From the NCBI GenBank assembly GCA_933822405.4, contig CAKOGP040000224.1, forward strand, positions 238,383 through 302,382: 64,000 bases of DNA. The letters run 5' to 3'. The notes beneath the pieces were generated by a model. The model saw nothing but the letters and a program-made list of their open reading frames with translations. It was not told the DNA's origin and searched no databases. Made by a program: the position numbers and the translations under genes. Positions 11,993-49,707 of the stretch are shown here, in pieces; within the stretch, counting starts at the first letter, position 1; the number at the start of each line of letters is the position of its first letter. Source of the stretch: Cylindrotheca closterium. Lineage: Eukaryota; Bacillariophyta; Bacillariophyceae; Bacillariales; Bacillariaceae.

Positions 11993-12436
11993 ATGGAAGC
12001 TTTTATGTCAACATTGATGAGAGATTACTCTGCAACTAACTTTGTAATCATCCGTGATGACGCTAGAATTGCGGAACATCAGCGTGCCGAGTTCACTACA
12101 GCTGTCACTGCATCGATGGAGGATACACCCAAACGTCCTTCCTTTGGCAACTGCCCTACCAAAAACCCCGCCCCGAAACTACCATCACGAAGGGAGAGTA
12201 CGGATGATCTTTTCGAGCGAAAGGATGGCCGTCGTCGTACGCGTAACATTCCCAAACGAAGGTCCTCGATGGATGACGACCTGTTGTTGCACGGCATCAA
12301 GAACATTGGAAATCAGCCACTTTCAAACCTTTTTGAAGAACAACATAATTATGGATCACCATCCAGGCAAATGTTGTTTGAAGACATTTTCCGGGATCTT
12401 GATAATCTGCTAAAGAAGACTGCAATGAATGAATGA
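11993..12436 (+). CDS. FVIIRDD-family protein, full-length short form
   Basis: 147 residues. It shares four blocks with three genes at 31-35.6 kb. The N-terminal block is MEAFMSTLMRDYSATNFVII followed by RDDA (residues 1-25). Then come an acidic RPSFGN segment, an LPSRRESTDDL site, a basic RRSSMDDDLLLHGIKNIG block and a C-terminal SRQMLFEDIFRDLDNLL helix. No known domain is recognised. The two Arg-Arg/Arg-x-x-Ser sites look like basophilic-kinase targets. The stop codon lies in a short ATGA tandem repeat. This copy is isolated from its relatives by about 19 kb and is on the opposite strand. Confidence 0.85.
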   Translation: MEAFMSTLMRDYSATNFVIIRDDARIAEHQRAEFTTAVTASMEDTPKRPSFGNCPTKNPAPKLPSRRESTDDLFERKDGRRRTRNIPKRRSSMDDDLLLHGIKNIGNQPLSNLFEEQHNYGSPSRQMLFEDIFRDLDNLLKKTAMNE

Positions 12437-13571
12437 ATGAATAAGAAAATCACACAAGCGAAACCACAAGAGTGGTGGAATAAATACTAGCCAGATGCAC
12501 ATAGATGGCTTGGGAGAGAATCACAGCAGGATGTCGACAAGACTGTACTCTACATCGAGATCTGTATCACCTTCATCAGCTAAAATGCCTGATTGAGATT
12601 TATTCAGGAACTATTACATTAATGGTCGAAATCTCGAGTTCCTCTTGGTTGCCACATTCATTGTACATATTCTTGATAATATGGATCACTCTTGTGATAA
12701 TATAACGCTGCACGAACTAGTAAGAATGATACAGAAGTCACAATTTGCTCTTTTCTAGAATTCCTCGAATTGGCGTGTTTCCACGACAGGCTTTGGATAT
12801 ACCCAACAGTTTTATCATGCTAAAAGTTCATTGTGTTTGCCGGCCGCCATTGTGTCCAATTGTTCGTTCCAGCTTGTGCTTTCTCCAACGACGCGAGTGC
12901 AGTCGGCGGCGCGAGTGCAGTGTTCAATTGTTCCATCTAGCTTCTCTCGGCCGCTATCTTAGCCAAAGGGGGTTGTTGCGACTTTTTGTACCTTGCAGCG
13001 GAAATTTGTTCCTCGTCTTCAGGAGGAGTAATCATATATACAGCATGTCAAAACTTTCTTGTGTGGGAGAGGACTTCTTGGGCTGTGTTCCAAAGGCTTG
13101 CGCTCAAGGCCGGGGCTTGAGAGGGTGAATAATCATAAGAGATGGTGCTGTACTATACCCGTCTGTTGCCATTCTTTGCATCTTTGAGTTCTACATGCTA
13201 GTGGCTGGCTGTTTCTTATCTTTCATCATATTGATTTGCAGGACTCGATATCTGAGACCTCACGGCTTCAGAAAATGAATGATCATAAGACATGCTACCC
13301 TACCCATCTGATCCACTTTGCTTCTGATTCATATTCTACTCTTTGAGTTCTGAGTGGCTGCTTCTTCTTCTTTTACAATGAAGGGCTGCTTGATACCCCG
13401 ATCGTATTGACTTTCAGGACTTGGTAGGTAGTATCCGAGACGGTCCTGCAGTATCCCCCTACAGTTTGGATGCATAGCACCTTTTACAGCCAGAAATTTC
13501 CACGACTAGAAGCTTCTTCCTATGCATCGTTCAGAAACAACAAAGGACCAAGCAATTCATGCCCACTCCAA
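12437..13571. other. Intergenic with a diverged tandem duplication
   Basis: No supported gene. The 127-codon plus-strand frame at 12745-13128 has no domain and no coding-like character. A short repeat of GGCGCGAGTGCAGT type occurs near 12890-12920, and a diverged ~150-bp duplication occupies 13127-13442. Confidence 0.6.
13127..13442. repeat. Diverged tandem duplication of about 150 bp
   Basis: Two units begin with GAATAATCATAAGA (13129) and GAATGATCATAAGA (13279). They share in order a CCCGTCTG/CCCATCTG segment, CTTTGAGTTCT, GTGGCTG, TTGA-TTTGCAGGACTCG/TTGACTTTCAGGACTTG and TATC-GAGAC. The similarity is patchy, indicating an old non-coding duplication. Confidence 0.6.
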
Positions 13572-14114: not shown

Positions 14115-14281
14115 CAACCGGTTTTGGGCTCGTTATCGGATGGAAGACAGACTAAACATTCTCTACGGAGGCAGGACTGACGTCAGATAAGACAAGCGAA
14201 ATAAACAGAATAATGACCATGACACTATTATAATATATATTACCGTATGCATCTTGTTGGGACAAGAGAATCATCATCATC

Positions 14282-15112: not shown

Positions 15113-15278
15113 TTTCGACTATTAATATGTAATACGTCATCCTGGATACGTGGTACTCGTACTTTTCCACGAGCCTGTCGATTTTTAGGTGACTTTTCGT
15201 GGGATAGTTCTTATGAGTACTTGGTTGCTTATCACTTGGAATAAATGTATCCAGCAGCAGTAGCAGTAGCAGCAGCAT

Positions 15279-16374: not shown

Positions 16375-17328
16375 ATGTTGGACAATCCGTATCAAGTGCT
16401 TGGTCTTTCTTATGACGCATCTGAAAGTGAAATAAAAAAGTCATACTACAAGGCAGCTCTCAAATATCACCCCGATCGCCAGGCCAACAACAAGGAAAAC
16501 AAAGACGAGGATGCCAATGAAAAGTTTGCCGTGATTAAAGAGGCTTATGAAATCTTGACCGATCCTGTCAAGCGCTACGATTGGCGGCAGGCACACGGCG
16601 GTAACGGCAACAGAACAACAGCACCGCCAACGTCAACGCCGAAAGCAGCACCAGCAACAAGGGCATCGAAGGCTTCAAAGACACCAGCTAGTCCTTTTCG
16701 GGATCGAGGACGTGCGGGGGTACCGCTATCCAACACCTCATATCAATCCAATACACAACCGGTCTCTAACTCGAGCAAGAGAACCAGACGATCCCCAATG
16801 TCACGCCATCAGCATCAGCAGCAGACCCCACAATCGCCGCTGTCGACCGACGCCAACTCTAACAGAAAGAAGTACATGCCACAGCGACAGCAGCAGCTAC
16901 CACAGCCGCCGCTCTCGGCTCCTTCCACTCATCGAAAATCGCCCCAGCACGGGTTGAATGATCGAGTAGGCGTTCCCTTGTCCAAGAAGAGTGTTTTAAT
17001 GGCAACGACTCCCAAAAGCTCGGTCTTGAGGCAATCTGTACGGAGCAAATCCCCGCGGCCTGCTCCCCGTAGTGGCAAGTACGACATGGCTGCACCTCCA
17101 CTGTACCATGACAATATGTCCGCCACTTCAAAGCAAAAGAAAGTCCGGCAACCACCGCGCATGAGTTCGTTGGATCTTAACCACGGTCGCAAAAAGCATA
17201 GATTATCACCCATGCGGAAAGGTGATTCATTCGATCACGGTGCTTCGCGTCCTTTTCACAACAAGACGAGGATCAACAAGACGAGGATGGCGAGGGTAAA
17301 TATGACTGGAATCGAGATACTGCAGTAG
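16375..17328 (+). CDS. J-domain protein 1 of the tandem cluster
   Basis: 317 residues. Residues 1-75 form a J domain: [20 protein letters not shown], helix II, the HPD triad at 32-34, an acidic loop, and helix III/IV with [17 protein letters not shown]. No Gly/Phe region or zinc-finger follows, so it is a class C (J-only) co-chaperone predicted to stimulate an Hsp70. The remaining 240 residues are basic and disordered and contain cluster-shared motifs: [33 protein letters not shown] and [14 protein letters not shown]. It lacks the FGI C-terminal motif seen in other members. The tail may select clients or be phosphorylated. Confidence 0.9.
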
Positions 17329-17723
17329 CAACGATTTAATTGCTAGATATTCTAGCGAAGACTAAACACTTGAAGCTATCACCGTGTATTGTATACCCAT
17401 ACTGTAGAATAAAGTCGCATTTATTCATACTGGCAAAGTTTTGCGATAGAAACGACAAATATGACTACTCATTTATGAAAAAATTGATTGATAAAAAGTT
17501 CCCCCTGGAAAGGCAGTTGTAACTCGTACGTGTACCCGCGCGTGTGGACCCTCTGTTAGGAAACAAAATATCACGACTGAAACTTCTGCTTCCTGATCAG
17601 ACCCAAGATATTTCATAATTTCAGCCCTAGTATCACACAATTTCCTCAGCGCAATCGCACCTTGGGACTTGCAAATCTTATCAGCATCTTCTTCTCCATT
17701 CGCAACTCTCCCTTCCTCTAAAC
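17329..17723. other. Short intergenic region between J-protein genes 1 and 2
   Basis: No gene. Bases 17670-17715 (ACTTGCAAATCTTATCAGCA and following) resemble the leader of J-protein gene 1, so the duplication unit included the 5' flank. Confidence 0.6.
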
Positions 17724-18953
17724 ATGTTGGACAATCCGTATCAAGTACTTGGCCTTTCTCAAGATGCATCTGAAAGTGATATCAAGAAAGCATACCACAA
17801 GGAAGCTCTCAACTATCACCCCGATCGCCAGGCCAACAAGGAAAACAAGGACGAAGATGCCATTACAAAATTTGCGGCGATTAAAGAGGCTTATGAAATC
17901 TTGACCGATCCTGTCAAGCGCTACGATTGGCGACAGGCACACGAAAATGGAAAACGAACAACTCCCAAATCACCGCCAGAACCCGCTCGTGAACACGAGA
18001 ATGGCAATGGAACACCCAGAACATCAAGGGCACCTCCTCGTCGAGAGAATGGTAACCGAAATTCCGCCCCAGCAAAACCAGCGAAGGCCCCTTCTAGTCC
18101 CAGAGGCAGTGCCCGATCGACAGCGCAATCCAATTCTGATCATGGCACAAATCCGGTGTCCAACTCGAGCAAACGAGCCGAATTCATGGACAAGAAACAT
18201 CAGGCTCAATATGAAAGTACCAGATCTTCCTTTGCTTCGCCAATGAGTGCGAGACGAAAGCGACAGAGTCATTCTCCGCCGCCATCGACCATACATACCC
18301 CCAGGGCATCCGTACGATCGTCCTCAAGGCATCATACAAGTTCCTCTCCGGAAGGGCGGGGCAAGCGACGTGTGAGATCGAATAGTGCCAATACTAGACG
18401 AGCCAACAATGCCCATCGCATGTCCCAAACACCATTCTCTGCAGCAGCGGCCGCCCCAAGAAGAACTATTGGACGCATGTCACGGCATGAGATGCCGCAA
18501 CCGCCGCTTTCTTCAGGAGCCACCGCTCAGCAACGAAAGACTGTGGGACGGATGCCACATCAGATGCCACAGCCGCCACTATCAGCTTCATCTCACCGAA
18601 TATCGCTTGAAGTACCCCACGGTGCTCCTTGGCAAAACGTTACTATGACAACCCCCAAAGGCCCGGTCTTGCGACAATCTGTAAGGAGCAAATCACCCCA
18701 GCCCGCTCCACGTGGCCATATGCCTGCACCTCCACTCCATAGGGATGTGCACCGTAGTCGCCATTCGACCCACACTGCACCAGTGCGGAGGAACTCATTG
18801 GATCATGGTACCCACGGTCGCCACAAGCACAGACCACCCATGCGAAAGAGTTCGTTGGATGGTTCCCCTCGGAAGGTCAACAAGATCAGAGGAAAGTCCC
18901 AGCCTCCTCCTCCACCTCGAGAACGTTTCTTTGGAATCAAGTTACCACAATAG
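17724..18953 (+). CDS. J-domain protein 2 of the tandem cluster
   Basis: 409 residues. The J domain at 1-75 has HPD at 32-34 and the cluster signature [17 protein letters not shown]. The tail is Ser/Pro/Arg-rich with ordered shared motifs: [38 protein letters not shown], two copies of the GRM-x-MPQPPLS type (about 245-295), [28 protein letters not shown], [12 protein letters not shown] and the end motif [11 protein letters not shown]. It ends 62 bp from the stop codon of the convergent J-protein 3, so their 3' regions probably overlap. Predicted cytosolic or nuclear Hsp70 co-chaperone; the tail function is unknown. Confidence 0.9.
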
Positions 18954-19015
18954 TATAATAGCAATCCTATAGTATGATTTTGCTTCACATTTGTCACTGT
19001 GCTTAACCATTATTA

Positions 19016-20173
19016 TCATTGTGTAAATATCTTTCGAATGCTCAGGCTCTTTGTTCCAAACATGCTTTTTCGAGGTGGAGGAGGAGGTTGGGACTTTGGA
19101 CTCTTTGGCTTCCTTTTCTTTGTCTTTTTCTCCGTCTTCTTGACCTTGCGAGACGAAGCATCCTCCAACGAATTCTTACGGATTGGTGGTGATTCATTTA
19201 GTTCCATATGCTTTTTGCGACCATGGACGCCATGATCCAACGAATTCCTGCGCAATGGTGGTTTGGGAATGTTTCTGGGAGAATGCCTGCTATTGTAGAG
19301 TGTAGGCTGTAGAGAATTCCTTCGAACCGATTGTCGCAAGACTTGGCGGGGTGAATCATGCCTGTCATCGTAGAGTGCGGGCTGGAGAGAATTTCTCTTT
19401 ACCGATTTTCGAAAGCCTCTGCCATTGGCGGTGGCCATGGTTGGCAAGAAGACTCCTTCCGGTACATCCTGTAGCACCATATCGGGCTTCTTTCGATGGG
19501 GTGAAGCCGAAAGTGGCCGGTGTGGCATCGACAAGCGTCTCACATTTCTTCGTTGAGAGCAGGCAGCGCCTACAGAGACTGGTGAATGGGATAAATGCTT
19601 GGTCCGTACATTGGCACTACTAGATCTCACACGTGGCTTGACCCAGCTGCTAGGGGATGAACTTGCAGGATGTCGTACGGATCTGGGCGATGCTTTTGGA
19701 GAACGCATGGGCGAACGTCGTGGCGCCGGAGAATGATTCTGTCGCTTCTTTCGTCTCGCACTCCTCCCTGGAGAAACAGAGGGAGTTCTGTTAGATTCAT
19801 GTTGGGTGTGGTGTTTCTTGGCCATAAATTCGGCTCGTTTACTCGAGTTGGATACCGGACTTGTGTAATCATATGCGTTGGGTGGCGGCGGTACGCGAGA
19901 AGAACTGAAAGGTGTCTTAGCTGTTGTTCTTGTTGCTCTTGCACTGCCGTTCTCATGTTGCTGTCGCCAATCGTAGCGCTTGACAGGGTCAGACAAGATT
20001 TCATAAGCTTCTTTAATCTCAGTAAACTTCTCAATGGCGCCATCGCCATTCTTTTCCTGGTTGATCTGGCGATCGGGGTGATATTTGAGAGCTGCCTTGT
20101 GGTATGCTTTCTTGACGTCACTTTCGGATGCATCGTGAGAAAGACCGAGCACTAGATACGGATTGTCCAACAT
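19016..20173 (-). CDS. J-domain protein 3 of the tandem cluster (inverted)
   Basis: 385 residues from the ATG at 20173, the Met homologous to the starts of the other four; the open frame upstream begins only with a non-ATG codon. The J domain has HPD at 32-34. The tail carries [13 protein letters not shown], [12 protein letters not shown], two consecutive [11 protein letters not shown] and [11 protein letters not shown] motifs, [16 protein letters not shown], an Arg/Lys-rich block and [15 protein letters not shown]. It is the only minus-strand member, so a local inversion followed or accompanied duplication. The NSLQP doublet is specific to this copy. Confidence 0.9.
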
Positions 20174-20284
20174 GATGAGTATAGAAAAAATGTGGGTTTG
20201 GCTAGAAGTATCGCGTTCCAATTGCAATGAAGCTCAAATTATGACAAGCAGCAGCACCAGTGCAGCCACCACCAGAGACATGAT

Positions 20285-20548
20285 GATGTCCAGCATTATC
20301 AATCAATGTCTTGTGATGCCTTCTCACTTACTTCTGCTCGGAAGACAACTCAGTCTTCAAACGACATCAATTTCGGTAACGTTATGGATTTGGGCTTACA
20401 AGAGACACTCTTGCTTGTCCACATTCCTGTAGCGATTTCGGTCTCGCTATGGAGTTTGACTGACGAGAGACATCACCTCTATCAATGGTGTCTTGTAATT
20501 TCCTTCTGCTCGGACAAGGATACAGCATTTCGTGTAGCGATGGCTTGA
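20285..20548. repeat. Diverged duplication, about 170 bp apart
   Basis: The segment ATCAATGTCTTGTGATGCC...CTTCTGCTCGGA near 20300 recurs as ATCAATGGTGTCTTGTAATTTCCTTCTGCTCGGA near 20477 (quoted with gaps). GTAGCGATTTCGG is echoed as GTAGCGATGGC further on. The copies are too diverged to be recent. Confidence 0.45.
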
Positions 20549-20846
20549 ATTACTTTTCCACTATCTTTCCATTCATTCAATCCATCCTGACCTTTGATAG
20601 GTGGCGGCATTTTGCGATCAATTCTATTGTGAGAAATGTTCGCAAATCTCAAATGTTTCTCTTCGTATTATTTATTGGTGACGTGAAGAACCGGGGGGAG
20701 GGGGACTGTGATGTTCCATCAGTTCCCTGTATTCAGTACCCATATGGTCCGTCTGTCGCGCGCCTTTTTAATAAAACGTCTTTCGGGCATGCGTGCTGGT
20801 GATGGACTCCCTCTCTACCGGTACCTACTACCAGGTACCCCCATCA

Positions 20847-20957
20847 CCCACCACGTCTCTTGTGGATAGCAGTAGAAACAGACAAAAATGGATGAGAAAC
20901 ATGGTGCTGATTGCTGATACAGTTCTTAGTGGTCTGGGCATAGTCACAATTCATTGA
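20847..20957 (+). pseudogene. Relic of the C-terminal end of a gene related to the secreted protein at 14282
   Basis: In frame from 20850 this reads TTSLVDSSRNRQKWMRNMVL followed by a short tail and a stop at 20955-20957. It matches the end of the protein at 14282 (PTMSPIDSSANRQQWTRTMVL, here split: PIDSSANRQQ, WTRTMVL) at roughly 70 percent of bases over 75 nt. No upstream exon, signal peptide or Pro/Thr linker coding was found nearby, so it is a truncated duplicate rather than a gene. Confidence 0.65.
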
Positions 20958-21567
20958 GAATACAGTACTTCCTTCTTGTCCGGCTCGAGGAGGGTACATG
21001 GCGGTTCTAGCTAGTATTTTAAAACTTAAATGAAGGTTGGGACTGTGTTCTGCGTGAGCCAAGTTTTTGCTTGGATTGAGCAGTGACGTGACAGACAACG
21101 AATGAACGTGTTGGATGCGACTCCTTTATCTAAATTTATAACACTATTGCCCCCGGTGCCTAAGAGAAAAGTATTTTACCGCGCCTGAAGACCATGTGTT
21201 TGTCAACAACCAAGACACGAAATATCAATCAGAGGCGATTCAATAACAAATATCGGAGGGTCGGCTCGCGAAAAATGGGTTTGGAAATCTCAGAATTTGG
21301 AGATCCACAGATTTTGAGATTTTACAGGAAAGAAAAAAAGTCACCTGCTCGAAATAATATAGGCACAGATATAATTATAACATTACATTGATGCCGGAAC
21401 CATAAACCAACTCAATAATAACCACCAAACAGTTATTCGATTGAACTATCACTACAACGCTGACAAGAATCTCATCAGTCATCAGCATCGTCATCAGCAT
21501 CAGAAAGCTCAACCTTAATTGTTGACACTTTGCGATTCGCATTGCACTGTGCCTTTTAAAAAGCAGC

Positions 21568-22911
21568 ATGATGGACAATCCGTATCAAGTGCTCGGACTT
21601 CCTCTGGATGCCTCTGAAAGTGATATAAAAAAAGCGTATCACAAGGCAGCTCTGAAATACCATCCAGATCGTCAGACCAACAAGGAAAACGAACAGGATG
21701 CAGGTGTAAGATTTGCTGAAATTTCAGAGGCTTATGAAACCTTGACCGATCCTGTCAAGCGTTACGATTGGCGACAGAAACATGAGAATGGTGGTAGCGG
21801 AACTACGTCCACAAAACCAGCAAGGGCACCTGCTAGTCCTTCTCGAAATGCCGCACCGCCATCCACCACTTCGTCAACGTCTTCCACCTCGTATCAGTAT
21901 TCAAACCCGGTCTCCAACTCGAGCAAACGAGCTGAATTCATGGCCAAGAAACAGGAGTCTGAGTCTACAAGAGCTTCCTTTGCTTCTCCAGTGAGCTTGA
22001 GGCGAAAGCGGCAATCGTATGCTGCTGCACCACCTCCGTCACCCATGCAATCGACTCCCAGAGCATCCGTACGACCAAGTATAAGGCGTCCCTCCAGTTC
22101 GTCTCCCAGCAGCAGCAACAGCAACAGCAATTGGAGCAACAAGCAACGAATGGCGAGTCCCGATTCCAATAGTATCAACATGACAGGAAGTGTTCGAAGC
22201 TTGAATGCTGGAACCTTGCGGGCCAAGAACAACTCGAGGGTGCCACAGTCCGCAGGCGCAACCTCGCAACGACGAACGGTGGGGCGCATGTCCATGCAAA
22301 TGCCCCAACCGCCATTGTCGGCGGGCGCCGGTACTCACAAACGACGTGCGAGTGTCGCTACACCGTCCCAAACACGGCATGTCCCCCAGGGTCCCTTGCC
22401 CACCGTGTCAACCTCCCGCGGTTTGGTCTTGAGACAATCGGTGCGGTTGAAACCTTCGGCGCAACCCTCCCCCGCACCTCGCGGAAACTTGCCAGCCGCC
22501 CCTCGTGGAAACATGCCCGCACCTCCACTCTCTTCACCAGCGGTGCGCCGGAATTCCTTGGATGGTTCGGGCCGCAAGAAGAGTCACCGCGACACTTCCT
22601 TGGATGGATCCTCGCGCAAGGTCCGAAGGGAGAAAACGAGTAGCAAAAAGAGTACTGACATGGTCGTCAAACGGCCCAAGTCCCAACCTCCACCGAGAAA
22701 GAGCATATTTGGCATCAACGTGGGCAAGAAAAAGGTACACAACAACGCTAATGATGACAAATCCATGAAATCCAATAAGAGCAAGAAGAAAAAGGAAGAA
22801 AAGGATGGCAAGAAAAAGAAGAAAAAGCCCAAGTCTCTCTCCGCGCCCCAGCAGACTCTGTTGACAACAACAACCACCACAACCACAAAAATGAAAAAGA
22901 AAAGGACATAA
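21568..22911 (+). CDS. J-domain protein 4 of the tandem cluster
   Basis: 447 residues, the longest member. The J domain at 1-73 has HPD at 32-34 and a shorter acidic loop than copies 1 and 2. Shared tail motifs are [93 protein letters not shown] (two SLDGS repeats) and [13 protein letters not shown]. It ends with an extra Lys-rich tract ([18 protein letters not shown]) and a Thr run, absent from the others and suggestive of a nuclear-localisation signal. Start and J domain are unambiguous; the tail function is unknown. Confidence 0.9.
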
Positions 22912-23677: not shown

Positions 23678-24874
23678 ATGTTGGATAATCCTTATCAAGT
23701 ACTTGGCCTTTCGAATGATGCCTCTGACAGTGAAATAAAGAAGGCCTATCACAAGGCAGCTCTCAAGTATCACCCGGATCGTCGACAGGACAAGGAAAAC
23801 AACGAACAGGATGACGCCACTGAAAAGTGGGCTGCGATATCTGAAGCTCATGAAATCTTGACCGATCCTGTCAAGCGCTATGATTGGCGACAGGAACATG
23901 AAAACAGTGGCAGCCGAACATCAATAGCAAAAACAGCAACGCCAACGCCAACAAGAGCCAAGGCACCTTCTACTCCTTCTCGTGAGAGTCCCAGAGATAC
24001 TAGAGAACCTTCGGCTTCGCCATCGCCATCCACCTCTTATCATGACACAAAACCGGAGAGTTATTCTCCGCATCCCCGACGAACGCGACAGAGCCGTTCT
24101 CCACCCAGACGAAGTCGACAGCGACAGACTCATTCTCCACCGAGACGAAAGCGACAGAGTTTTTCTCCGTCGGCTATGAAATCTCCCAGAGCATCCGTTC
24201 GGTCATCCTCAAGACGGCATGCAAGTTCATCCCCCGAAGGTCGGAGCAACCGATTTGTGAGAGCCAACAGTGCCAATATACGAGTCATGAATTTCTATCG
24301 CAAGTCACAGGCAGCACCATCCTCAGCAGGAACGACCGCTCCAAAAAGGACTATGGGACGCATGTCACAGCATCAGATGCCACAGCCGCCACTGTCCGCA
24401 GGGGGCGGCTCTCATCAGAGAAGAAGAAGAAGGCGCGTGTCACCTTTGCAGCAAAAGATGCCACAACCGCCACTGTCATCTTCCACCCACCGATCAGTGC
24501 TGCATGTACCCCAAGGTGCTACCGTGGAAACCCCCGAAGGCCGCCGGGTCGTACGACAATCGGTACGACGAAAGAAATCCCCCGCTCCGAATATGCCAGC
24601 AGCACCTCCAGTTTTCAAGGAGAAGAAGAGTATTCATCCACCAGCAGTGAACAGGAATACCTTGGATCATGGCAGTGCTACTAGTACCACGACCACCCAT
24701 CGCAAACAAACTCATCATAGGAAAAGTGAACCAGCATTTATGACTCGCAATTATAAGAAGCAGGATGGTTCCTTGAACGGCACCCCTCGCAAAAAGCATA
24801 GGGAACGAAAAAGTCTTTTTGGAATCAACTTGGGCGTTCGGAAGGTATCAAATCATAATGACAGTGAAGATTAA
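23678..24874 (+). CDS. J-domain protein 5 of the tandem cluster
   Basis: 398 residues. The J domain is at 1-76, HPD at 32-34, followed by RRQDKEN (copies 1-4 have a single R here). The conserved EAYEIL is changed to [17 protein letters not shown]. The NPVSNSSKR motif is lost; in its place is an Arg/Ser-Pro repeat block ([20 protein letters not shown] and onward), SR-like. Other cluster motifs are retained: [39 protein letters not shown] with a second [31 protein letters not shown] and [13 protein letters not shown]. The SR-like block may favour nuclear location or SRPK-type phosphorylation (inference). Confidence 0.9.
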
Positions 24875-25208: not shown

Positions 25209-26978
25209 TTAAACATTGATAGCGTCCCTGGTACTGTCCTCCAAGGATTCTTTTCCCGTGGGATCTGGTCCCTTTTCGGATGACAACTCTCCCGAGGTTT
25301 CGTCGTCGTCGTCGTCACTTACTCTGGTAGGTGGATCCAATTGTTTCAAATCTTCTGCCGAAATGAGTTTGGGTACCACAAAGCTTCGGACAGGAACGTA
25401 GCACGCAATCAATGCTGGGAAGGCATATCCCCATGTTGCAAATTGAGCAATACCAAATGTGACGGCCATGAGACTGAATTGAATGAAAGTATAGAGTTGA
25501 ACTACTCTCCAGCTGCTGGTCTTGGCAACGGCCGGGATTGGTGGACGTCTCTTGGGACGCATGAGCATCAGGTTGATGCGCTCCCAGATCTCATTGCCGT
25601 GCATGGCATCGACACCAAGATACAGGAAAATACCAAATAGACATCCAACGGGGATCCAACTAATGACCACAATCACTGCCAAAATGGCAAACATCAATAA
25701 TGCTTGACCCATATTGGACCAGCGTTGTTCTTCGCAGTCGGAAAAGACCTCACGGCGAACACCGTCAATGATCTTGAATTTTCGAGTACAGAGCGATTTC
25801 GAGTGAAGCGGTGCTTCTGGAATAAGACCAGATCCTGGAGGAATACCCATGATTCCACAAGGAATCATGGTCAAACCAAGCACAAAGAAATCCCAATGAT
25901 ACGCGGATGGTTTCTTGAGGTTGTACTTTGGGGCTTGAGTCATGATACTTGAAATGTTGTGGTCAATGAAAAACAACAGGTACAACATGAACGCGGGGAA
26001 GAGTGCCCCAAAGATGCCTCTGACATCAATCCCATCCAGTGGATCGGCAACCCAAGGGCGTGGTTCAATTCCTGGTTCTGTAGTCGGCCTCCAGTCCCAT
26101 GGATCACGGCGAATAAAGACTCGTTCGATTCCTTTTCGGCCATCGGAATCTTGTGCCACACCTGGCAAGTAACTCAGAGCTGTCATGACTACAAGAGCAA
26201 TGAGCATGTTGTAACTTTTCAAAAAGGTGCGGAAGGAAGCATTGAAGTGGTCCCATTGTTCGGCAAAATGCAACTTCCAGCAAATTACAAAGGTCATGGC
26301 ACCAACCACCAAAGAGGCGTAGGCTGCCGATCTCTCGTCACTTTGCGCATCCCGGAAATGAATATCCTGCACCAATTCACGGATACTTTGGTAAATAAAC
26401 GTGGTGGCAATGAATAACTCAAAGGTTTGGGTGGAAAAGGAAGAAATGTGCCACACAAAGTTGACCACTCCAAACATGGCCGAAAGCATGTGCAGCAGAG
26501 CAGCCCACATGCACAGCCACCAGAAAAAGGTAAAGTATTCGGCGTCATAGTCTTCTGCCAAACGATACGACTTCCCCAGTAGAATGGCGACTGGTCCAGT
26601 GATTCCCAGCAAGACCAATGGCTGACCCGCCAGCAATGCATAAATGACACTAATGAGACCAGCACTGAGAATAACTTCAGCGACGGCCAGTCTTCCTTGC
26701 GTTTGTCGATCCAATAGCTCTGCAAAAATCAAGGCTGGAATCAATTGAACAACAAAGACAAACCAGGTTGCGTTCAATACCTTTATGGGACTTCGTGGAC
26801 ATTTCCAGTCATCCCAATAGAGTGGAACTCGAGCCGCCAGATCCTTCTTCATTCCTGTGAGGAATTGAATTGTTGGGGTCTTGGTGCTACTGCTCTCGCG
26901 TATTACTTCATTCTTTGTGGATTTTTTAACATTGCGCATTGCTTCCATTGTTCCTTCGGCAAGTGTAGGATCATCCAT
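25209..26978 (-). CDS. SLC4-family bicarbonate/borate transporter
   Basis: 589 residues, no intron. The membrane domain is complete: FAELLDRQTQGRLAVAE (85-101) and GQPLVLLGITGP (118-129) match the SLC4 substrate-site helices TM1-TM3 region. FFIDHNISSIM (337-346) and SAYHWDFFVLGL (358-369) precede the loop GIPPGSGLIPEAPLHSKSL (378-396), typical of SLC4 and plant/yeast BOR proteins. A C-terminal VPVRSFVVPKLISAEDLKQL follows. The N-terminal cytosolic region is short (about 65 residues), unlike animal AE/NBC proteins, and the C-terminus is an acidic tail. In diatoms, plasma-membrane SLC4 proteins import bicarbonate for the CO2-concentrating mechanism; a borate role cannot be excluded. A TGACGT element lies 155 bp upstream. 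Confidence 0.93.
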   Translation of the reverse strand: MDDPTLAEGTMEAMRNVKKSTKNEVIRESSSTKTPTIQFLTGMKKDLAARVPLYWDDWKCPRSPIKVLNATWFVFVVQLIPALIFAELLDRQTQGRLAVAEVILSAGLISVIYALLAGQPLVLLGITGPVAILLGKSYRLAEDYDAEYFTFFWWLCMWAALLHMLSAMFGVVNFVWHISSFSTQTFELFIATTFIYQSIRELVQDIHFRDAQSDERSAAYASLVVGAMTFVICWKLHFAEQWDHFNASFRTFLKSYNMLIALVVMTALSYLPGVAQDSDGRKGIERVFIRRDPWDWRPTTEPGIEPRPWVADPLDGIDVRGIFGALFPAFMLYLLFFIDHNISSIMTQAPKYNLKKPSAYHWDFFVLGLTMIPCGIMGIPPGSGLIPEAPLHSKSLCTRKFKIIDGVRREVFSDCEEQRWSNMGQALLMFAILAVIVVISWIPVGCLFGIFLYLGVDAMHGNEIWERINLMLMRPKRRPPIPAVAKTSSWRVVQLYTFIQFSLMAVTFGIAQFATWGYAFPALIACYVPVRSFVVPKLISAEDLKQLDPPTRVSDDDDDETSGELSSEKGPDPTGKESLEDSTRDAINV

Positions 26979-28079
26979 CTTTTTGGTATTTGGAATAATG
27001 TCAAAATCGTGCTTTTTATGAACGTTTTGTGAGATACTCGTCTCACTTTTTGTGGGTGCGACAAACGCTCTTTCTTATCAGAAATCCGTTGGTCCACAAT
27101 CGCGTGTTGCCGTGCGCAGTCAGAGAAGTTGGGACGTCATGCCCACAATACTTCATTCTCATTGGACAAAGCTTCATTGCAGTATTCCGATGTATCTTCG
27201 CATCGGAATACCCACAGACAAGTATCCTTCTGCAAACACGAATTAATGACCATCTGGCATGGATGCTTGCAACAGGCATGTCCCCCAAATCCATACTGTA
27301 TCAATGACAATGTCGTACCGTAGTATCTTGTTTACCCACAATATCCGACGGATGTGAGATGTGACACGATGTCTCTGATCCAACAACAGGAAGTACCTTC
27401 GGGATGACAGGAGAGCCGAATCCCTTCCACTGGCTCGGAGAAAGCAAACATTCGAATTTTTATTTTGTTTTTATTAAAATACATATAGTACATGTACTTA
27501 CAGTACCTAATAGCCTCAGTTTAGACACGTCGTGTTTGGCATTGTCCCTCTCCACCTACGTGGTGAGTGTATTTTAGTACCTGTCCCTACATGGCCAGCT
27601 GCAAATTTTTCGGCCCGTCTCCTTTTTTACTCCAGAGAGTCGAATCACGAACATCTCGGTGCGACAGTCCCAACCATTTGTTCCAAATAAATGAATTTGC
27701 ATAGTCTACCAAACAATTATGTCTGATTGGTTGACGGCGAAAAAACCTGCGACATGTCCTACACTTTTTTACATATACACAATAAGATTAAATTTACCAG
27801 TCTATTAAGGCACTTCATTTACCTATGACGCCGTCATTCGAAACACCACCGTGGTCTTGTGATTGATTGTACTGTATGCGAAACACTTATATCATCACCT
27901 CTCTTTTCAGGAAAGGCAGCAAGCGACTGGGTTCATGTGCTACAGAGACTTCCCGAACATCAACCACAAGCGCAATAGACCAAATACCCACTGCATACTT
28001 CCACCATCATCATCTTCATAAGTAGTCAACATCAGTGATTAAAATTCTCAGTTCATTCATCAGTTCGAGACAGGCAGAA
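26979..28079. other. Divergent promoter region between SLC4 and the disordered protein gene
   Basis: No supported gene; small overlapping frames at 27029-27323 on both strands look incidental. A TGACGT element (minus strand) is at 27134-27139. AT-rich stretches lie near 27460-27500 and 27750-27800. Confidence 0.6.
27134..27139 (-). promoter_or_regulatory. TGACGT (CRE-like) element upstream of the SLC4 gene
   Basis: On the coding strand of the transporter the hexamer TGACGT lies about 155 bp before the start codon. In the diatom Phaeodactylum, TGACGT/ACGTCA elements bound by bZIP factors mediate CO2/cAMP response of carbonic anhydrase genes. One hexamer in about 1 kb is expected by chance at a noticeable rate, so this is only suggestive. 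Confidence 0.25.
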
Positions 28080-30800
28080 ATGACTAGCTTAAGCGACAGA
28101 ATACGAGATCCCCCAATTGTGGTGGACAGGAGGAATACGTCTCCTGCCTCTTCCACTTCGTCACCCGTTGTGGGTGATATCAACCGAAAGGTCCGTCGCT
28201 TCCAAAAGCTGCGAGCGAGCAAATCCGCTTGGAATAATAATCATTCAGAATCATCGAATTCTGAGAACCATTATCAGGTGGGAAAATCTCCAATGCAAAA
28301 CCTGAAGAAACGATTGAAGCATCGCCGCGGCAACTCGGAGGCGTCGCCTGCCTCGGCGGAACCTCTCAAGCATCGTCAAATCCAAGGTGATATGATGTCA
28401 TCCCCTGTGATTACCGAGACGGATTCTTCCTCTCACACAGAACCAAGACGATTGAAGCGGGTCACATCGAAAATCAAAAAGACGACTTCCTTTCGTCAGA
28501 AACGAAATAAGGGTTCCCATCATAACAACAGCAATAGCAGCAACAAGGAATCCAACAAGCCAAGACAAACAAAAGTCAAAATGTCGTCTCTGGTCGCAAA
28601 AGCCATGAGTACTGTCAGGACCCGCAAAGAACCATCCTTGGTTCCAGATATCGACAAGATTGTTCCAAACACGATTGCCTCCAAGATATCGTCCTCTATC
28701 CAAAAACGCCGAACGAGCACCAGCAGTCCTAGTAGTGTGGAACTCAGAAAGAAAGTTGCAGACAGTCCTTCTCCTCCTGCAAACACCACCAACAAACTAA
28801 CAGCGGCGGATCCCTTTAGCTCGGATGCGTATCGACCAGGTGGAAAGTCCAAAAAGAAGAAGAAAAAGAAACAAAAGAAGCCAGGTCAACAGCAACAACA
28901 AAGGGGAGAGCAGAAGCTACATCATAATGGGGAAGAGCAAGAATTGCAACACAAGGGGGAAGTAGCTCAACAACAAGAACAGCAACGGGATCAAGAAGAA
29001 ACGGAATTCATCAGCACAACTGAGACTGTGGAAATACCTCTGGCTGAGAAGGACAAACGTCGACCTCCTTCAGTCAGTCGGGAAAGGAGGTCTACTATGA
29101 GCATTGCTGATGTTGGGGATGATACAGCAGTAACAGCAACCGACAAGCCAAGGTCTGCCAGTCGGGAACGCATGTTGCGGTCCAGCAAAGCTTCTTGGAA
29201 ATCCGACTCGGATCTCAACAAGAAAAATGAGATCAAGAGAAAGAAGGCCAAGAAGACGGTTACAACGCTCGAGAAATTCTTTCAATCGGACGAGGAAGAC
29301 GACGACATTTATGATAGCGAAGAAATTACGGTGGCAAGCAGTGAGGTGCCTCCACCATCGCCATCGCAATGGAAGACAACCGTTTCCATGAGAGGTTTCT
29401 TCAAGGATTCCATCTCTGATGATTCTTCATCTGAGGAAGAAGACCTAATGGATAGCACTGAACTACTGAAAAGCAGTGAAACGAGACTTCCGCAGCCACC
29501 TCAATTTTCTCTTTCGCCCAAATCGCCCGAACAACGGGGTCGGTCTCCCATTACCGGGGAGAGGGATCGATTGGATTCTAGTGAAATGCGGTTCCCTCAA
29601 TCGCCCAAACGAGAGCAGCAGCAAATACACGAAATTGAATTGAGCGACCAAGTCTCACCAAACAAACGACGGTCTTCGCCGCCAACTCCCAAACAACAAA
29701 TGTCCGGGTTGGAATTGACGCCCTTATCACCGCATGCTGTGCTGCGACAATCTCCCAAGGGTCGACGGGTCAACAGCACAGACAGTATGGTCAGTATGAC
29801 TGGTGATGAGGATGATCCACCTCCTCCGGAGGAAGATGTTACCCTTCGACGTAGCAACAGCCGGGACCGACTATTTAATAAAAAGAAGAAAGAACCGTGG
29901 GAGGACGTGCCGATTCTTGAGGAGGAACTTCCGCCAGTTCGCAAGGCTTTGAAGAAGAAGGATTTCGAAGCGATTCTCAAAGAAAAACCAAATGTTGCAC
30001 AACAACTCATGTCGCCATTGCTGCGCAAGACCTTGAAGACGAAGGATCCCAAGGAAGAATCATCGAGACCAGGCCGACCTGCCTTGATTAGACGGAATTC
30101 CGCGTCGTCGGCGCAATCCAGACGCAATCGTTCCAAGAGTAGGGATCGATCGACGGTCCTAGAGTCTCTCGAAAATGTGGAAGCTATGTGTCCTAGAGAC
30201 GAACGTATACCCCACTACGCGACACCCGTTCGTGGAGAACCACGAAAACCGGTTACTGCTTTGTCGTCGTTGGAAAATCCACACGTATTGAGAAGGGTGG
30301 CATCGAGTTCGGAAGTCAGTCGCCAACATCGCTCCTCCTCTCGCACAAGAACGCCTCGGTCATCCTCCCAAATGGACGAATCTCCGTCTTCTCCCATGTT
30401 GGAAATGCAAGGGTCAATAGAACAGCTAAAGAAAAGTGTGGTGCCACCATTTCCTAAAGGAAAAGACACGAGAAATCTTGCTGCTGCGGCTGCCTTGTTT
30501 AGTCCCATTCATCCAAGCGACGATGATATTGACAGTGATCCTGAGGAAGGTGGGTTGGCCATGGGCACTACGGGCCGACGCACGAATAACAAGCACCGAC
30601 GCGCGCAATCAGCGCAAAATTTGCCCATCGGAAGGTCGTCGTCCTCCCTATCGTCTTCCTCTTCCACTTTTCGTAATATTCAACAAGAATCCCAGCAGAA
30701 ACATCAAAGGAACTTATCTGGGCGTGAAAACTTGATGGATGTACTCTCTCTAGCAGGGGGTGACGGGGAGATGGCTGGTTTCTTACATTCACATCACTGA
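28080..30800 (+). CDS. Large disordered phospho-motif protein, unrecognised
   Basis: 906 residues from the ATG at 28080 (MTSLSDRIRDPP); the frame is open further up only from a GTG. No folded domain is recognised. Composition is Ser/Lys/Arg/Glu-rich. Recurrent short motifs include SRERR/SRERM/SRDRL/SRDRS (four places), Lys-rich tracts (SKKKKKKKQKKP), acidic patches (DEEDDDIYDSEE) and proline-directed SP/TP sites. The stretch at about 470-590 has LPQPPQFSLSPKSPEQ and AVLRQSPKGRR, which echo the PQPPLS and VLRQSV motifs of the J-protein tails upstream. A duplicated SSEMRFPQSP/SSETRLPQPP unit is also present. Probably a scaffold or nuclear protein; function unknown. Confidence 0.85.
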   Translation: MTSLSDRIRDPPIVVDRRNTSPASSTSSPVVGDINRKVRRFQKLRASKSAWNNNHSESSNSENHYQVGKSPMQNLKKRLKHRRGNSEASPASAEPLKHRQIQGDMMSSPVITETDSSSHTEPRRLKRVTSKIKKTTSFRQKRNKGSHHNNSNSSNKESNKPRQTKVKMSSLVAKAMSTVRTRKEPSLVPDIDKIVPNTIASKISSSIQKRRTSTSSPSSVELRKKVADSPSPPANTTNKLTAADPFSSDAYRPGGKSKKKKKKKQKKPGQQQQQRGEQKLHHNGEEQELQHKGEVAQQQEQQRDQEETEFISTTETVEIPLAEKDKRRPPSVSRERRSTMSIADVGDDTAVTATDKPRSASRERMLRSSKASWKSDSDLNKKNEIKRKKAKKTVTTLEKFFQSDEEDDDIYDSEEITVASSEVPPPSPSQWKTTVSMRGFFKDSISDDSSSEEEDLMDSTELLKSSETRLPQPPQFSLSPKSPEQRGRSPITGERDRLDSSEMRFPQSPKREQQQIHEIELSDQVSPNKRRSSPPTPKQQMSGLELTPLSPHAVLRQSPKGRRVNSTDSMVSMTGDEDDPPPPEEDVTLRRSNSRDRLFNKKKKEPWEDVPILEEELPPVRKALKKKDFEAILKEKPNVAQQLMSPLLRKTLKTKDPKEESSRPGRPALIRRNSASSAQSRRNRSKSRDRSTVLESLENVEAMCPRDERIPHYATPVRGEPRKPVTALSSLENPHVLRRVASSSEVSRQHRSSSRTRTPRSSSQMDESPSSPMLEMQGSIEQLKKSVVPPFPKGKDTRNLAAAAALFSPIHPSDDDIDSDPEEGGLAMGTTGRRTNNKHRRAQSAQNLPIGRSSSSLSSSSSTFRNIQQESQQKHQRNLSGRENLMDVLSLAGGDGEMAGFLHSHH

Positions 30801-31159: not shown

Positions 31160-31232
31160 TTGGAGGTTTTTTCTCTTCTGCAGTCTCAATTTGCATTTCA
31201 AAATCTTGAAAGATATCGTCAAACAACATGTG
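31160..31232 (-). pseudogene. Out-of-frame remnant of the FVIIRDD C-terminal helix
   Basis: On the minus strand from 31232 one frame reads HMLFDDIFQDFEMQIE. This matches SRHMLFDDIFRDIDAML of the paralogue at 32743 and SRQMLFEDIFRDLDNLL of the one at 11993. It lies just beyond the stop of the gene 31236-31589 but in a different frame, so it is a detached remnant of that gene. Confidence 0.75.
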
Positions 31233-31235
31233 TCT

Positions 31236-31589
31236 TCATTTCAAAAAGGCTTGGGAGTTCTTGCTTCCTATCCTCTTGATGCCACGTAACAACATTTCGT
31301 CGTTCAACAAGCTTCGTTTCCGACGGCTACCACCCTTTGGCGTCGACGCCATTGAAAGATCATCAAAACTCTCCTTTCTTGATGGAAGTGTAGGCGCGTC
31401 GTTATTACTGGCCGAGGATTGCGGGTTGCTGAACGAAGGACGTTGGGATGCTTCTTCATGATGTTGGCTCAATGTGGCAATAGCATTGAACTCTGCACGC
31501 TGATGCTCTCCAATCGTAGCATCATCGCGAATGATTACAAAGTCTGTTACAGAGTAATCGCTCATCAATCTTGACATGAAATTTTCCAT
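31236..31589 (-). CDS. FVIIRDD-family protein, C-terminally truncated by frameshift
   Basis: 117 residues from the ATG at 31589 (MENFMSRLMSDYSVTDFVII then RDDA). The shared blocks are present up to RKRSLLNDEMLLRGIKRIG, after which the frame reads SKNSQAFLK and stops. Alignment to the copy at 11993 around GGAA...CTTTTTGAA shows 29 bases here against 30 there, i.e. a one-base deletion that shifts frame. A further deletion removes about 20 bases before the CACATGTTGTTTGA segment. The C-terminal helix survives only out of frame (31160-31232). It may still be translated as a shortened protein, since the N-terminal 100 residues are intact. Confidence 0.7.
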   Translation of the reverse strand: MENFMSRLMSDYSVTDFVIIRDDATIGEHQRAEFNAIATLSQHHEEASQRPSFSNPQSSASNNDAPTLPSRKESFDDLSMASTPKGGSRRKRSLLNDEMLLRGIKRIGSKNSQAFLK

Positions 31590-32742: not shown

Positions 32743-33189
32743 TCATTCATCAAGGATATCAGCTGTTTCCTTGAGCATTGCATCAATATCTCGAAAAATA
32801 TCATCAAATAACATATGCCTGGATGAAGAGGATCCGCGGTTTCCTGAAGGAAGCTTCGGTAGCTCGTTGCTTCCGATGTTCCTGATGCCGTGAGACAACA
32901 TTTCGTCATTCAACGACATTCGCTTCATACGGCTACCACCCTTTCGCTTCAGGGTCAGTGAAAGATCATCAATACTCTTCTTTCTTGATGGAAGCGTAGG
33001 TGCTGAGTTCTTGGCGACCGACTGCGAGTTGCCGAAAGAAGGACGCTGTGGTGCTTCGTCCTCGTCGTTGGATGCGACCGAAGCACTGAACTCTGAGCGC
33101 TGAGACTCGGAAATTGCAGCATCGTCACGAATGATGACGAAGTCTGTTGCAGAGTATTCTCTCATTAGTCTTGAGAAGTATCCTTCCAT
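32743..33189 (-). CDS. FVIIRDD-family protein, full-length short form
   Basis: 148 residues (MEGYFSRLMREYSATDFVII then RDDA). It has all family blocks: RPSFGNSQS, PTLPSRKKSIDDLSL, a Lys/Arg-rich KRKGGSRMKRMSLNDEML, GIRNIGSNE, and the C-terminal HMLFDDIFRDIDAMLKETAD helix. It is the closest relative of the copy at 31236 (shared RKGGSRRKR/MKR segment and NDEML), so these two are the most recent duplication. No known domain. Upstream lies a CACGTG cluster (33551-33596). Confidence 0.85.
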   Translation of the reverse strand: MEGYFSRLMREYSATDFVIIRDDAAISESQRSEFSASVASNDEDEAPQRPSFGNSQSVAKNSAPTLPSRKKSIDDLSLTLKRKGGSRMKRMSLNDEMLSHGIRNIGSNELPKLPSGNRGSSSSRHMLFDDIFRDIDAMLKETADILDE

Positions 33190-33976
33190 TGTAAAAGTTG
33201 TTGTGAATTTCTTTCCTTTGAGAGATTCGCAAATTTTAAATTATGGCTACACCGATACCGGTGTGGCAGCCAAAGCCAAAGCCTGAACGGTATTGAAGTT
33301 CAAAAGCCCGTCTGAATGGGCTAAGCTGTTCGAAGACTAGTCAGCGAAGGCTGCATACGGGGGTTGAAACCTTAAATCGCATCAGCAGTTGATACAGAAC
33401 TTTTCATCTCGGGGGAAAAGACCTCCGTGTTTGATAAATAATTCTGTCAAACCTGGTAGCGGAATTCATGCGATGGAAACCATACATTCTCCGCGAGCTC
33501 AAAATGATAAATCCAAGGCGCCGGGGTCGACAGTTCGAGGCATGGCAGGGCACGTGCAGTGATGGCCACTGCGCTGGTACACGTGTCACGTGTACCGATG
33601 CTGGACCCACCAAGACTAACTAAGTCTACCGGTAGATTGTGAACGAGGTCCAACCAACAAAATACTCTTGTTTGTGGTCCAACTACAGTAGGATAAAGGG
33701 TGCAACGACGGTTTGTACTTTGTTCTGTTCTGGAGCATGTATTATACTGGTGTTATTGACTAATAAAATATCTATTATTATATTGTGTTTTTCAGTATGT
33801 GCCCAGAGTTCGGCAAAAATCGAGTGCATCAGACCAATCGTTAGCTGGGCGGAGGCAGGAGAAGAGGATTGTGGTGCAAATAAGTCTCACTCTAGAACGC
33901 TAGCTGACCCAAAATGTAGCAGAGAGACGTCGTCCAGCATAGGGTTTTCGAAGGTTGTTCAATCCCTCAAGCATGT
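33190..33976. other. Intergenic, promoter of the 33189 gene
   Basis: No gene supported. It holds a CACGTG triplet cluster with a 21-bp inverted repeat (33576-33596), ACCGGT palindromes near 33248 and 33608, and an AT-rich 33750-33790 stretch. Confidence 0.6.
33576..33596. promoter_or_regulatory. 21-bp inverted repeat with two CACGTG cores
   Basis: Arms GGTACACGTG and CACGTGTACC are perfect reverse complements separated by a single T. A third CACGTG is at 33551-33556. The element is about 390 bp upstream of the FVIIRDD start at 33189. The arm sequence is identical to the half-site of the palindrome at 11428, upstream of another FVIIRDD gene. Binding by bHLH/bZIP factors is inference. Confidence 0.45.
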
Positions 33977-35563
33977 TCATGTACGTCCTCCTGACTCTTG
34001 CGACACAAGAGACAGCTGGCTGTCACTGATCCGCTGAGGACATGGTGCAGCAGTTGTTTGCATTCGAGACCTAGATTCGTCAGCAACTTGTTTGGATGTC
34101 GCTGCAGCCTTGCAGCCGTACTCGTCATGGATGCTAGATGCTCGGAAACGATCCGAGGACATTGCGATCTTTCCTCGCCATCTCGGTGAATTCAGCTTGG
34201 ACATAATTCGTTGCTTAAGGCCGCGGTCAGGTTCGGGAGCTAGTGGCACGTCGGTGATAACTGACGCTACCATTGCGACATCTTCCTCGCTGCTGTCGCA
34301 GTTCTCGTGTGGCCTATATTGCTCAGCTGGAGTAAAACCTTGTACTGTTTCATGGTCAATAAGCTGCTGCACCATCGCGTTGTCTATGGAGCTTCGTCTT
34401 TGAAAACGGAGCTGAGCCTGATGGTTGGAAGATGTCATTGCGTTGTCCAATGAACTTCGTCGTTGAAATCGACGATTGGGTTGGCTAATGGGCATCATCG
34501 TGTTGTCCATCGATCCTCGACGTTGAAATCCACCTTGCTTGCTAGAGTCGATATCAGATGACAAAAGCGCGCAGTCCAATGATTCTCGCCGTTGATGGTG
34601 CAGTCTAGTCTTCTGATCCACTAACATTGAAGCATTATCCAATGAGCTTCTTCTGCCAAAGTGCTGTCTAGTCTGCTCATCAGATGACAACAACGCGTTA
34701 TTCAAGGTTCCTTGCCATTCAAAGTGATGCTTGGTTTGCTCATCTGGAAGGATAATGGCATTGTCCAATGAACCTCTACGGTGGACGCGTTTCTTGGACT
34801 TGTCAATGGTCAACAACAATGAATTATCCAGTGAACTTCTTCGTTGAAAATGTTTTCTAGTCTTGCATTCTGGAGATAAAAGTTCGGTGCTGTCCACAGC
34901 ATGTTCCAATGAGCCTCTTCGTTTAGAATGGCTTTTGGGCTGGCAATCTGGTGAAACTACTAGCGCGCTATCTAATGAACCTCGTCGTTGATACGACCTT
35001 CTTGGCTGATATCGACTGGTGAATTCCGATTGCTGCTCAATAAGACTATCCTCACTCTTTTTGCGAAGTGGTAATGTAGGTGGAGAGCTATCTTGCCATA
35101 ACTCGTCAATGCTTTCCATTGGAGAACGTGCACCATCCCAACCATTTCTCTGTGTGTTCTCCATGTTGATGTGTGGATTCTCCGTCGACATGGGAAAGAC
35201 GTCTTCGCTTTCCTTCCCTTCATCATATGTACTAACCTTGTTCTTGCGTTTGTGGCCCAAGGCACGATTTCTTAATCCACGAAACTTGTCCAAAAAGCCA
35301 TGATGTTGTGGAATTTCGTTGGAAGCGGAAAGAATATGAAGGGAGTCGTTACTTTCTTTTCTAGCAGGAATTGTGGGTGCTGGGTTCACATCTGGTGTGT
35401 TTTTGAATGAGGACGGCCTGTGCCAATAATGCTCATCATCCGAGGATGATGGCTCTTCATCCATGCACTGCCTTCTCTCGCTGGAAATGAGAGCATCATC
35501 CCTGACAATGACAAGGTTGGTGGCAGCATTCTCGCGAAGTAGACTCGCAATGTAGGCTTCCAT
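33977..35563 (-). CDS. FVIIRDD-family protein expanded by ten RRxSLD repeats
   Basis: 528 residues from the ATG at 35563, chosen because it aligns with the family starts (MEAYIASLLRENAATNLVIV then RDDA). The N-terminal blocks match the short forms, including PTIPARKESNDSL and a second PTLPLRKKSEDSLIEQ. From about residue 205 to 415 there are ten tandem units of 20-25 residues centred on RR[GSE]SLDNA, such as FQRRSSLDNSLLL, VHRRGSLDNAIIL and FQRRSSIDNAMVQ. One unit is degenerate (FEWQGTLNNALLS). The unit corresponds to the single RRSSMDDDLLL block of the short paralogues. The C-terminal MLFDDIF helix is absent. Each unit is a consensus basophilic-kinase site, so multisite phosphorylation or multivalent binding is likely but unproven. 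Confidence 0.88.
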   Translation of the reverse strand: MEAYIASLLRENAATNLVIVRDDALISSERRQCMDEEPSSSDDEHYWHRPSSFKNTPDVNPAPTIPARKESNDSLHILSASNEIPQHHGFLDKFRGLRNRALGHKRKNKVSTYDEGKESEDVFPMSTENPHINMENTQRNGWDGARSPMESIDELWQDSSPPTLPLRKKSEDSLIEQQSEFTSRYQPRRSYQRRGSLDSALVVSPDCQPKSHSKRRGSLEHAVDSTELLSPECKTRKHFQRRSSLDNSLLLTIDKSKKRVHRRGSLDNAIILPDEQTKHHFEWQGTLNNALLSSDEQTRQHFGRRSSLDNASMLVDQKTRLHHQRRESLDCALLSSDIDSSKQGGFQRRGSMDNTMMPISQPNRRFQRRSSLDNAMTSSNHQAQLRFQRRSSIDNAMVQQLIDHETVQGFTPAEQYRPHENCDSSEEDVAMVASVITDVPLAPEPDRGLKQRIMSKLNSPRWRGKIAMSSDRFRASSIHDEYGCKAAATSKQVADESRSRMQTTAAPCPQRISDSQLSLVSQESGGRT

Positions 35564-49625: not shown

Positions 49626-49707
49626 CCACTAACAAACAAATGCAATCATCAGCTAACGCATAAGGAAACATAATAGGGTAGAAGGGTAAACAAAATAAAA
49701 TATTAAG

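Follow-up and report, generated by a model that had tools for sequence, protein, structure and literature searches.

A tandemly arrayed family of small diatom proteins with a conserved N-terminal block and a proline-arginine-serine motif

Four genes in a 64,000-nt stretch of the Cylindrotheca closterium genome (Bacillariales; contig C24, CAKOGP040000224.1; the whole stretch is called the window here) belong to a real and apparently unnamed protein family, which has a clear motif anatomy and is far larger than these four genes. They encode member a (147 amino acids, aa; 11993..12436, +), member b (117 aa; 31236..31589, -), member c (148 aa; 32743..33189, -), and member d, a long form (528 aa; 33977..35563, -). 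All four are open frames at the positions claimed in a first-pass annotation of this DNA; starts were set at a common Met, and the coordinates and protein lengths follow from that choice. The family has a conserved start block (the N-block) and a proline-arginine-serine motif (the P-block), and with these two parts its proteins look like small phosphorylation-controlled adaptors. Our preferred reading, to which we would assign a probability of about 40%, is that they are tandem-expanded, small, disordered adaptors, in which the N-block would pair with itself or with a partner, while the P-block would combine a docking motif with a basophilic phosphorylation site.

Extent of the family

The relationship among the four genes was tested with an N-block profile trained on the first ~32 residues of 31 members from other contigs, and run on the window translated in six frames (1578 segments). 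The four genes rank first, with E-values of 7e-11, 6e-10, 2e-8, and 8e-7; the next window segment has E 0.42, and the best residue-shuffled segment E 1.8. When the profile was built from the P-block instead, with 28 of the 31 outside members, three of the four genes come out on top (E 5e-4, 8e-4, and 2e-3; the best other real segment reaches 0.52, the best shuffled one 0.12); the 528-aa member d is absent from the nine best rows of this profile. It is confirmed that the four genes form a real family with a shared N-block and a block of the PxLPxRxxSxDDL type.

The family had been described as having four members, a figure that does not hold for the genome. The assembly searched (47.6 Mb, 572 contigs; 24,371 genes in the EMBL annotation, according to PMC12159174) contains at least 42 loci, spread over 15 contigs and often arranged as tandem arrays: C24 (4), C16 (3), C543 (1), C212 (2), C79 (3), C146 (8, of which one is N-truncated and two are identical), C56 (2), C381 (1), C68 (2), C517 (1), C135 (6), C90 (1), C468 (2), C554 (5), and C558 (1). 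The loci were collected by protein searches of the organism's own genome, and since later searches were still gaining loci (four C554 genes, C468b, and C558), 42 is a lower bound. Some members had only weak matches in the search that first brought them up (C68, E 2.1; C468_L075, E 0.54; C558, E 0.17) and were kept on the strength of their N-block and P-block sequence, or, for C79c and C468_L075, of the N-block only. Completeness was probed with P0020, a protein of unlabelled origin: of its 25 genome matches, the 24 with E up to 0.2 were all already-known members, and the other (E 0.77) was antisense to an unrelated frame. Comparisons below use 40 distinct sequences, excluding the N-truncated locus on C146 and one of the two identical ones.

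Several other candidates (C112, C4, C201:171151, C223, C435, C540, and C113) were dropped as non-members once read, and C30 was rejected as antisense to another frame; C371, C201:310253, and C403 were left outside the count. The identical C146 pair (L015 and L016, at 153.7 and 155.7 kb) lies ~2 kb apart with similar flanking frames, as in a recent duplication.

A further 13 relatives in protein databases carry no species label. Among these, P0002 shares 62% and P0003 57% identity with member c; P0007, P0008, P0010, P0012, P0013, P0014, and P0015 are of the C135 type; the others are P0018-P0021. P0011 is labelled C. closterium, and P0004, P0005, P0006, and P0009 match C135-encoded proteins. Some of the unlabelled relatives could derive from other strains. 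No relative labelled as another species was found in a 5.8-billion protein set, which is weak evidence because matches were scored at that size and at most 100 words were drawn. RW/PxRRxS-like proteins probably occur in other diatoms as well.

The first-pass annotation recognized no domain in these proteins, and database searches agree. Pfam gave no family for the four window genes at E up to 10, and homologs were found well beyond the window. Among 23 aligned members there was no shared Pfam family; seven families matched, each in one member, with a best E of 0.003 (DUF2681). NCBIfam gave no matches, Rfam none at gathering scores, and a tblastn search of phage none. A search of prokaryotic and viral contigs with P0001 gave 49 pattern matches in prokaryotes, none confirmed. 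A PDB sequence search reached E = 2 at best, which is chance level, with a stretch resembling the N-block (RLARERGVKTIVLVRDAAAAH) in the de novo designed proteins 8kcj and 8k8f. Foldseek found no PDB match for the model of member c, a result that says little given the low confidence of the model. Among the papers listed by literature searches, none was recognized as describing the family.

Two conserved blocks and optional elements

The N-block comprises 24 residues, running from the Met to RDDA or variants of it (VQDRA, VTDNP), with a helix followed by a strand-like stretch. Across 18 aligned sequences it has an invariant Leu, an invariant Asp, and an Ala conserved in 90% or more; a 25-sequence alignment again has an invariant Leu and Asp in the N-block, while P, R, and S in the P-block each reach 90% or above. 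Clear N-blocks in the genome begin at the Met or within three residues of it, except in C558, where a short leader precedes the block. This diverged locus (L081, C558:41.0-41.8 kb) also has RWES ahead of a CPQRRASIDDD block. On C554, an array of five proteins (L079 and L066, 71.8-77.6 kb) has N-blocks that are decayed or unclear (e.g., SFTALTPSTSAN) while each retains two to four PxRxxS sites, suggesting that the P-block module can stand alone.

The P-block has the form P-x-[LC]-P-x-R-x-x-S, often continuing x-[DE]-[DN]-L, and its Arg is usually preceded, at a distance of 13-18 residues, by a Phe. The pattern P.{2,3}P.R is present in 32 of 33 genome members, and past residue 30 in 31 of 33, vs. 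a mean of 3.7 and a maximum of 9 in 300 shuffles. PxxPx[RK] occurs in 25 of the 33 (shuffled mean 2.8), P.R.{1,3}S in 30 (8.6), RW in 10 (1.9), and RPS[FL] in 8 (0.4); these counts treat paralogs as independent, while the members share descent. With C554 left out, P.{2,3}P.R lies beyond residue 38 in 32 of 35 members, the exceptions being C79c, C468_L075, and C558. In these 32 the Arg is at residue 51-78 (median 70, interquartile range 68-72), and 24 have a Phe 13-18 residues ahead of it, vs. 6.7 expected from shuffled linkers. Of 43 anchored sequences, 35 have a Ser three positions after the Arg (+3).

Altogether there are 44 PxRxxS sites in 31 of the 40 proteins, six of them too close to the C-terminus to be scored. 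Position +2 is D or E at 19 of the 44 (D, S, or E at 28), and +4 is L at 20 and F at three. The -5 position is Pro, not a hydrophobic residue, in at least 90% of the 25 aligned sequences. In eleven short members no more than 10 residues separate the Arg from the C-terminus, and two of these proteins have the ending RRPSM.

Other elements are optional. An acidic helix is found by pattern in six of the 40 members, on four contigs (C24, C16, C212, and C468). RRxSLDx occurs in five of the 39 members other than d, and in nine copies in d itself. Eight genome members, along with P0007, P0008, P0012, P0014, and P0020, carry a [RK]W[SDTEQ] motif downstream of the P-block.

The N-block had been described as far better conserved than the rest of the protein. 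By the Nei-Gojobori method, the nonsynonymous rate (dN) is indeed lower in the N-block in all of 11 paralog pairs (members a, b, and c supply three of these). The P-block is diagnostic of the family too. Omega is lower in the N-block in 10 of the 11 pairs (the exception is C135b-C135c) and below 1 in all 22 comparisons. This result is indicative, given members common to several pairs, an N-block of only 28 codons, and a high synonymous rate (dS) in some pairs.

AlphaFold models predict that the proteins are largely disordered beyond the N-block helix, the P-block, and the acidic helix. For member c (23 sequences), the mean predicted local distance difference test score (pLDDT) is 66.8 and the predicted template-modeling score (pTM) 0.23; helices are predicted at residues 2-12 and 124-147, plus a short helix at 96-100. 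Block means are 88 and 85 at the N-terminus, 80 at residues 61-70, 90 and 84 at residues 131-140 and 141-148, and 50-67 over most of the middle. For P0020 (21 sequences; mean pLDDT 61.4, pTM 0.27) the N-block helix is at residues 33-44, and the P-block lies inside residues 91-110, with block means of 77 and 72.

Candidate functions

How might small disordered proteins with this anatomy work as adaptors? The N-block, an amphipathic helix plus a strand-like FxIVRDDA, probably folds on binding, either in self-association or in docking to a common protein; binding or self-association is suggested by the models, in which the strand-like half is unpaired within the chain. The Phe and the P-block would together offer two prongs for docking, joined to a basophilic kinase site; phosphorylation of the Ser would decide whether a PxxP-type reader or a phospho-reader (14-3-3, for example) binds. 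In long members, RRxSLDN repeats could add phosphosites, and the acidic helix or RW[SD] motif of some members could serve as extra ligands. What the data show is the family itself, its motifs and their spacing, the constraint, and a prediction of disorder; from these we infer oligomerization, phosphorylation, readers, and switching alike. A CAMK-group kinase may act on the P-block Ser, judging from the R at -3 (which is given by the search pattern itself), the D or E at +2, and the L at +4 of the sites counted above. By eye there is no obvious signal peptide, and adaptors of this kind would most likely be intracellular.

Known systems offer partial counterparts. PEAK3 has a tandem site in which PxLPxK stands beside a 14-3-3 serine; once phosphorylated, this serine recruits 14-3-3 and the binding of SH3 is weakened. 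The site is on a disordered stretch of a dimerizing protein (PMC10279719). The P-block has the same layout, a proline motif beside a basophilic serine. Unlike the mostly short proteins described here, the PEAKs are pseudokinase scaffolds that dimerize through SHED and are read by the CrkII SH3 domain; neither the four window genes nor the 23 aligned members have a pseudokinase or SHED-type Pfam match, and the likeness is one of layout. Class II SH3 ligands are PxxPx[RK], the form found in 25 of 33 members, but the family adds the upstream Phe at near-fixed spacing and the linked RxxS. Clients of 14-3-3 carry Rxx[pS/pT]xP and variants, including some without Pro (PMC8786283); the candidate sites of the family resemble them in P.R.{1,3}S and differ in lacking the +2 Pro. 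The genome has one 14-3-3 gene, as two neighboring pieces.

Several observations weigh against phosphorylation-controlled adaptors. Plain RxxS barely exceeds chance (31 of 33 members vs. 25.1 shuffled), and the canonical 14-3-3 Pro at +2 is found at none of the 44 PxRxxS sites. The +3 Ser is missing from eight of the 43 anchored sequences (C16b, C146e, C146g, C56a, C56b, C381, C135a, and P0003, where a P-rich stretch farther upstream took the anchor). There is no P-block in C79c and C468_L075, C558 (with CPQRRAS) is without its first proline, and the prolines of the C135, C90, and some C554 P-blocks are separated by three residues (e.g., PLxCPxR), unlike those of a strict PxxPxR. Some frames stay open upstream of the assumed start Met, and several database relatives are predicted to have longer N-termini. 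Finally, an exon-by-exon search for SH3_1 (PF00018), with two candidates scored, gave a single match above the cut-off, on C1; SH3_2 and SH3_9 (PF07653, PF14604) were not searched. One match makes an SH3 reader for ~40 ligands doubtful, and a proline reader, if there is any, may not be SH3.

Perhaps the proteins are phosphorylation sensors or sinks only, carrying a CAMK-group site (for a CDPK, CaMK, SnRK, or MARK-like kinase) read by 14-3-3, with no PxxP reader at all. We regard this as a lesser but serious possibility. The consensus would be R at -3, an acid at +2, and Leu at +4, with the prolines merely shaping the kinase or 14-3-3 site; the counts of D or E at +2 and of L at +4, the RRxSLDN-like repeats of member d, and the 14-3-3 gene are all consistent with it. 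So are the 11 members that end shortly after the Arg, two of them as RRPSM-end, which resembles the C-terminal mode of 14-3-3 binding. To our knowledge, a first proline and a distant Phe at near-fixed spacing are part of no known kinase consensus. The AMPK/CaMK consensus has a hydrophobic residue at -5, where these proteins have Pro, and several members retain P..P.R yet have no Ser at +3. Diatom CDPK, CaMK, and MARK3 are among the kinases named in a phosphoproteome paper (PMC7408324), which favors sensors or sinks.

The remaining explanations seem less probable. The family might be fast-evolving tandem copies with little retained function, their motifs shared by descent only, as suggested by the arrays, the identical recent C146 pair and the N-truncated C146 copy, the TGA in member b, and the decay of the N-block on C554; in Seminavis, tandem duplicates are reportedly less constrained than dispersed ones (PMC7335047). 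We think this rather unlikely, with omega below 1 throughout and lower in the N-block in nearly every pair, with motif and spacing retained despite diverging linkers, and with the same architecture in relatives from other unlabelled sources. It is also unlikely that they are transcriptional or nuclear co-regulators, in which the acidic helix (MLFDDIFRDIDAML, LFLETIFDEVDSIL, RVLKSFFDEV) would be an activation-type motif, the RRxS blocks would direct nuclear import, and the N-block would tether the protein to a DNA-binding partner. The helix does recur across four contigs and belongs to the regions modeled with highest confidence in member c, but it is missing by pattern in 34 of the 40 members, the shortest of which are barely more than N-block, RF, and P-block, and the Pfam searches offer no domain in the four window genes and none common to the 23 members. 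Least probable, in our estimate, is a targeting or membrane-anchoring leader in place of an interaction module. The N-block's position at or near the Met (C558 aside) and its predicted first-half helix, amphipathic in look, would suit one; by eye, the helix has acidic and few basic residues, and a strand-like part with a near-invariant Asp and Ala exceeds the usual leader.

Returning to the adaptors, a bolder version can be put forward tentatively, and we would rather bet against it than for it: that Phe...P-x-[LC]-P-x-R-x-x-S is a new diatom docking-plus-phosphoswitch, through which ~40 tandem-amplified micro-adaptors of one genome would couple varied outputs, by way of a shared self-associating N-block, to a domain so far unknown as a motif reader. 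If so, the P-block reader and the adaptors would make up a lineage-specific signaling currency, with the acidic helix, RW motif, and phosphosite arrays as outputs. An early survey could assign function by homology to only about half of diatom genes (PMC2945787). This family comes with a built-in prediction, a phosphorylation-controlled partner that reads PxLPxR; such a partner, if found, would open a signaling pathway invisible to homology-based annotation. Tandem amplification of the family hints at lineage-specific selection.

The window genes and their neighborhood

Member a contains, in order, the N-block (MEAFMSTLMRDYSATNFVIIRDDA, 11993..12064, +; the profile match at E 7e-11), PSF, the P-block, RRSSMDD, HGIKNIG, and the acidic helix. 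Its bipartite module, RPSF...PKLPSRRESTDDL, lies at 12134..12211 (+), and its helix motif, MLFEDIFRDLDNLL, at 12371..12412 (+), both read from the translation. In member c the N-block is MEGYFSRLMREYSATDFVIIRDDA (33118..33189, -), with the predicted helix at residues 2-12. Its module, RPSF...PTLPSRKKSIDDL (32962..33045, -), has the mean pLDDT of 80 at residues 61-70, with 56 and 65 in the adjacent blocks, and its acidic helix motif, MLFDDIFRDIDAML, at 32773..32814 (-), is within the predicted helix 124-147.

In member b the N-block (MENFMSRLMSDYSVTDFVIIRDDA, 31518..31589, -; profile and translation) is followed by the module RPSF...PTLPSRKESFDDL (31356..31442, -; translation), and the protein stops at an in-frame TGA (31236-31238, -) directly before the conserved helix motif; RHMLFDDIFQD continues in frame beyond it (31203..31235, -). 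A database protein of 117 aa, P0017, stops at the same point. Member b may be genuinely shorter, may have undergone a recent loss, or may reflect an error in the assembly. The MLFDDIF-RD helix had been attributed to most of the four genes: it is intact in a and c, behind the TGA in b, and was not found in d. Overall, the reading of the first-pass annotation is partly supported.

Member d has an N-block (MEAYIASLLRENAATNLVIVRDDA, 35492..35563, -; profile and translation) and, by translation, two P-blocks, the first together with its Phe (PTIPARKESNDSL, 35339..35419, -) and the second PTLPLRKKSEDSL (35042..35080, -). Beyond these are nine RRxSLDNA-like repeats (34379..34987, -), spaced by 20-26 residues with one gap of 42; the count depends on the pattern, nine by a wider and eight by a narrower one.

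Member a is separated from members b-d by an array of five open reading frames with DnaJ domains, spanning 16375-24874 of the window (16375-17328, +; 17724-18953, +; 19016-20227, -; 21568-22911, +; 23678-24874, +). Long open frames at 28035-30800 (+, 921 aa), 45968-49663 (+, 1231 aa), 49708-51837 (+, 709 aa), and 53791-56208 (+, 805 aa) have no Pfam match at E 0.001. A 589-aa frame at 25209-26978 (-) contains an SLC4-like HCO3 transporter integral membrane domain (PF00955, E 1e-90).

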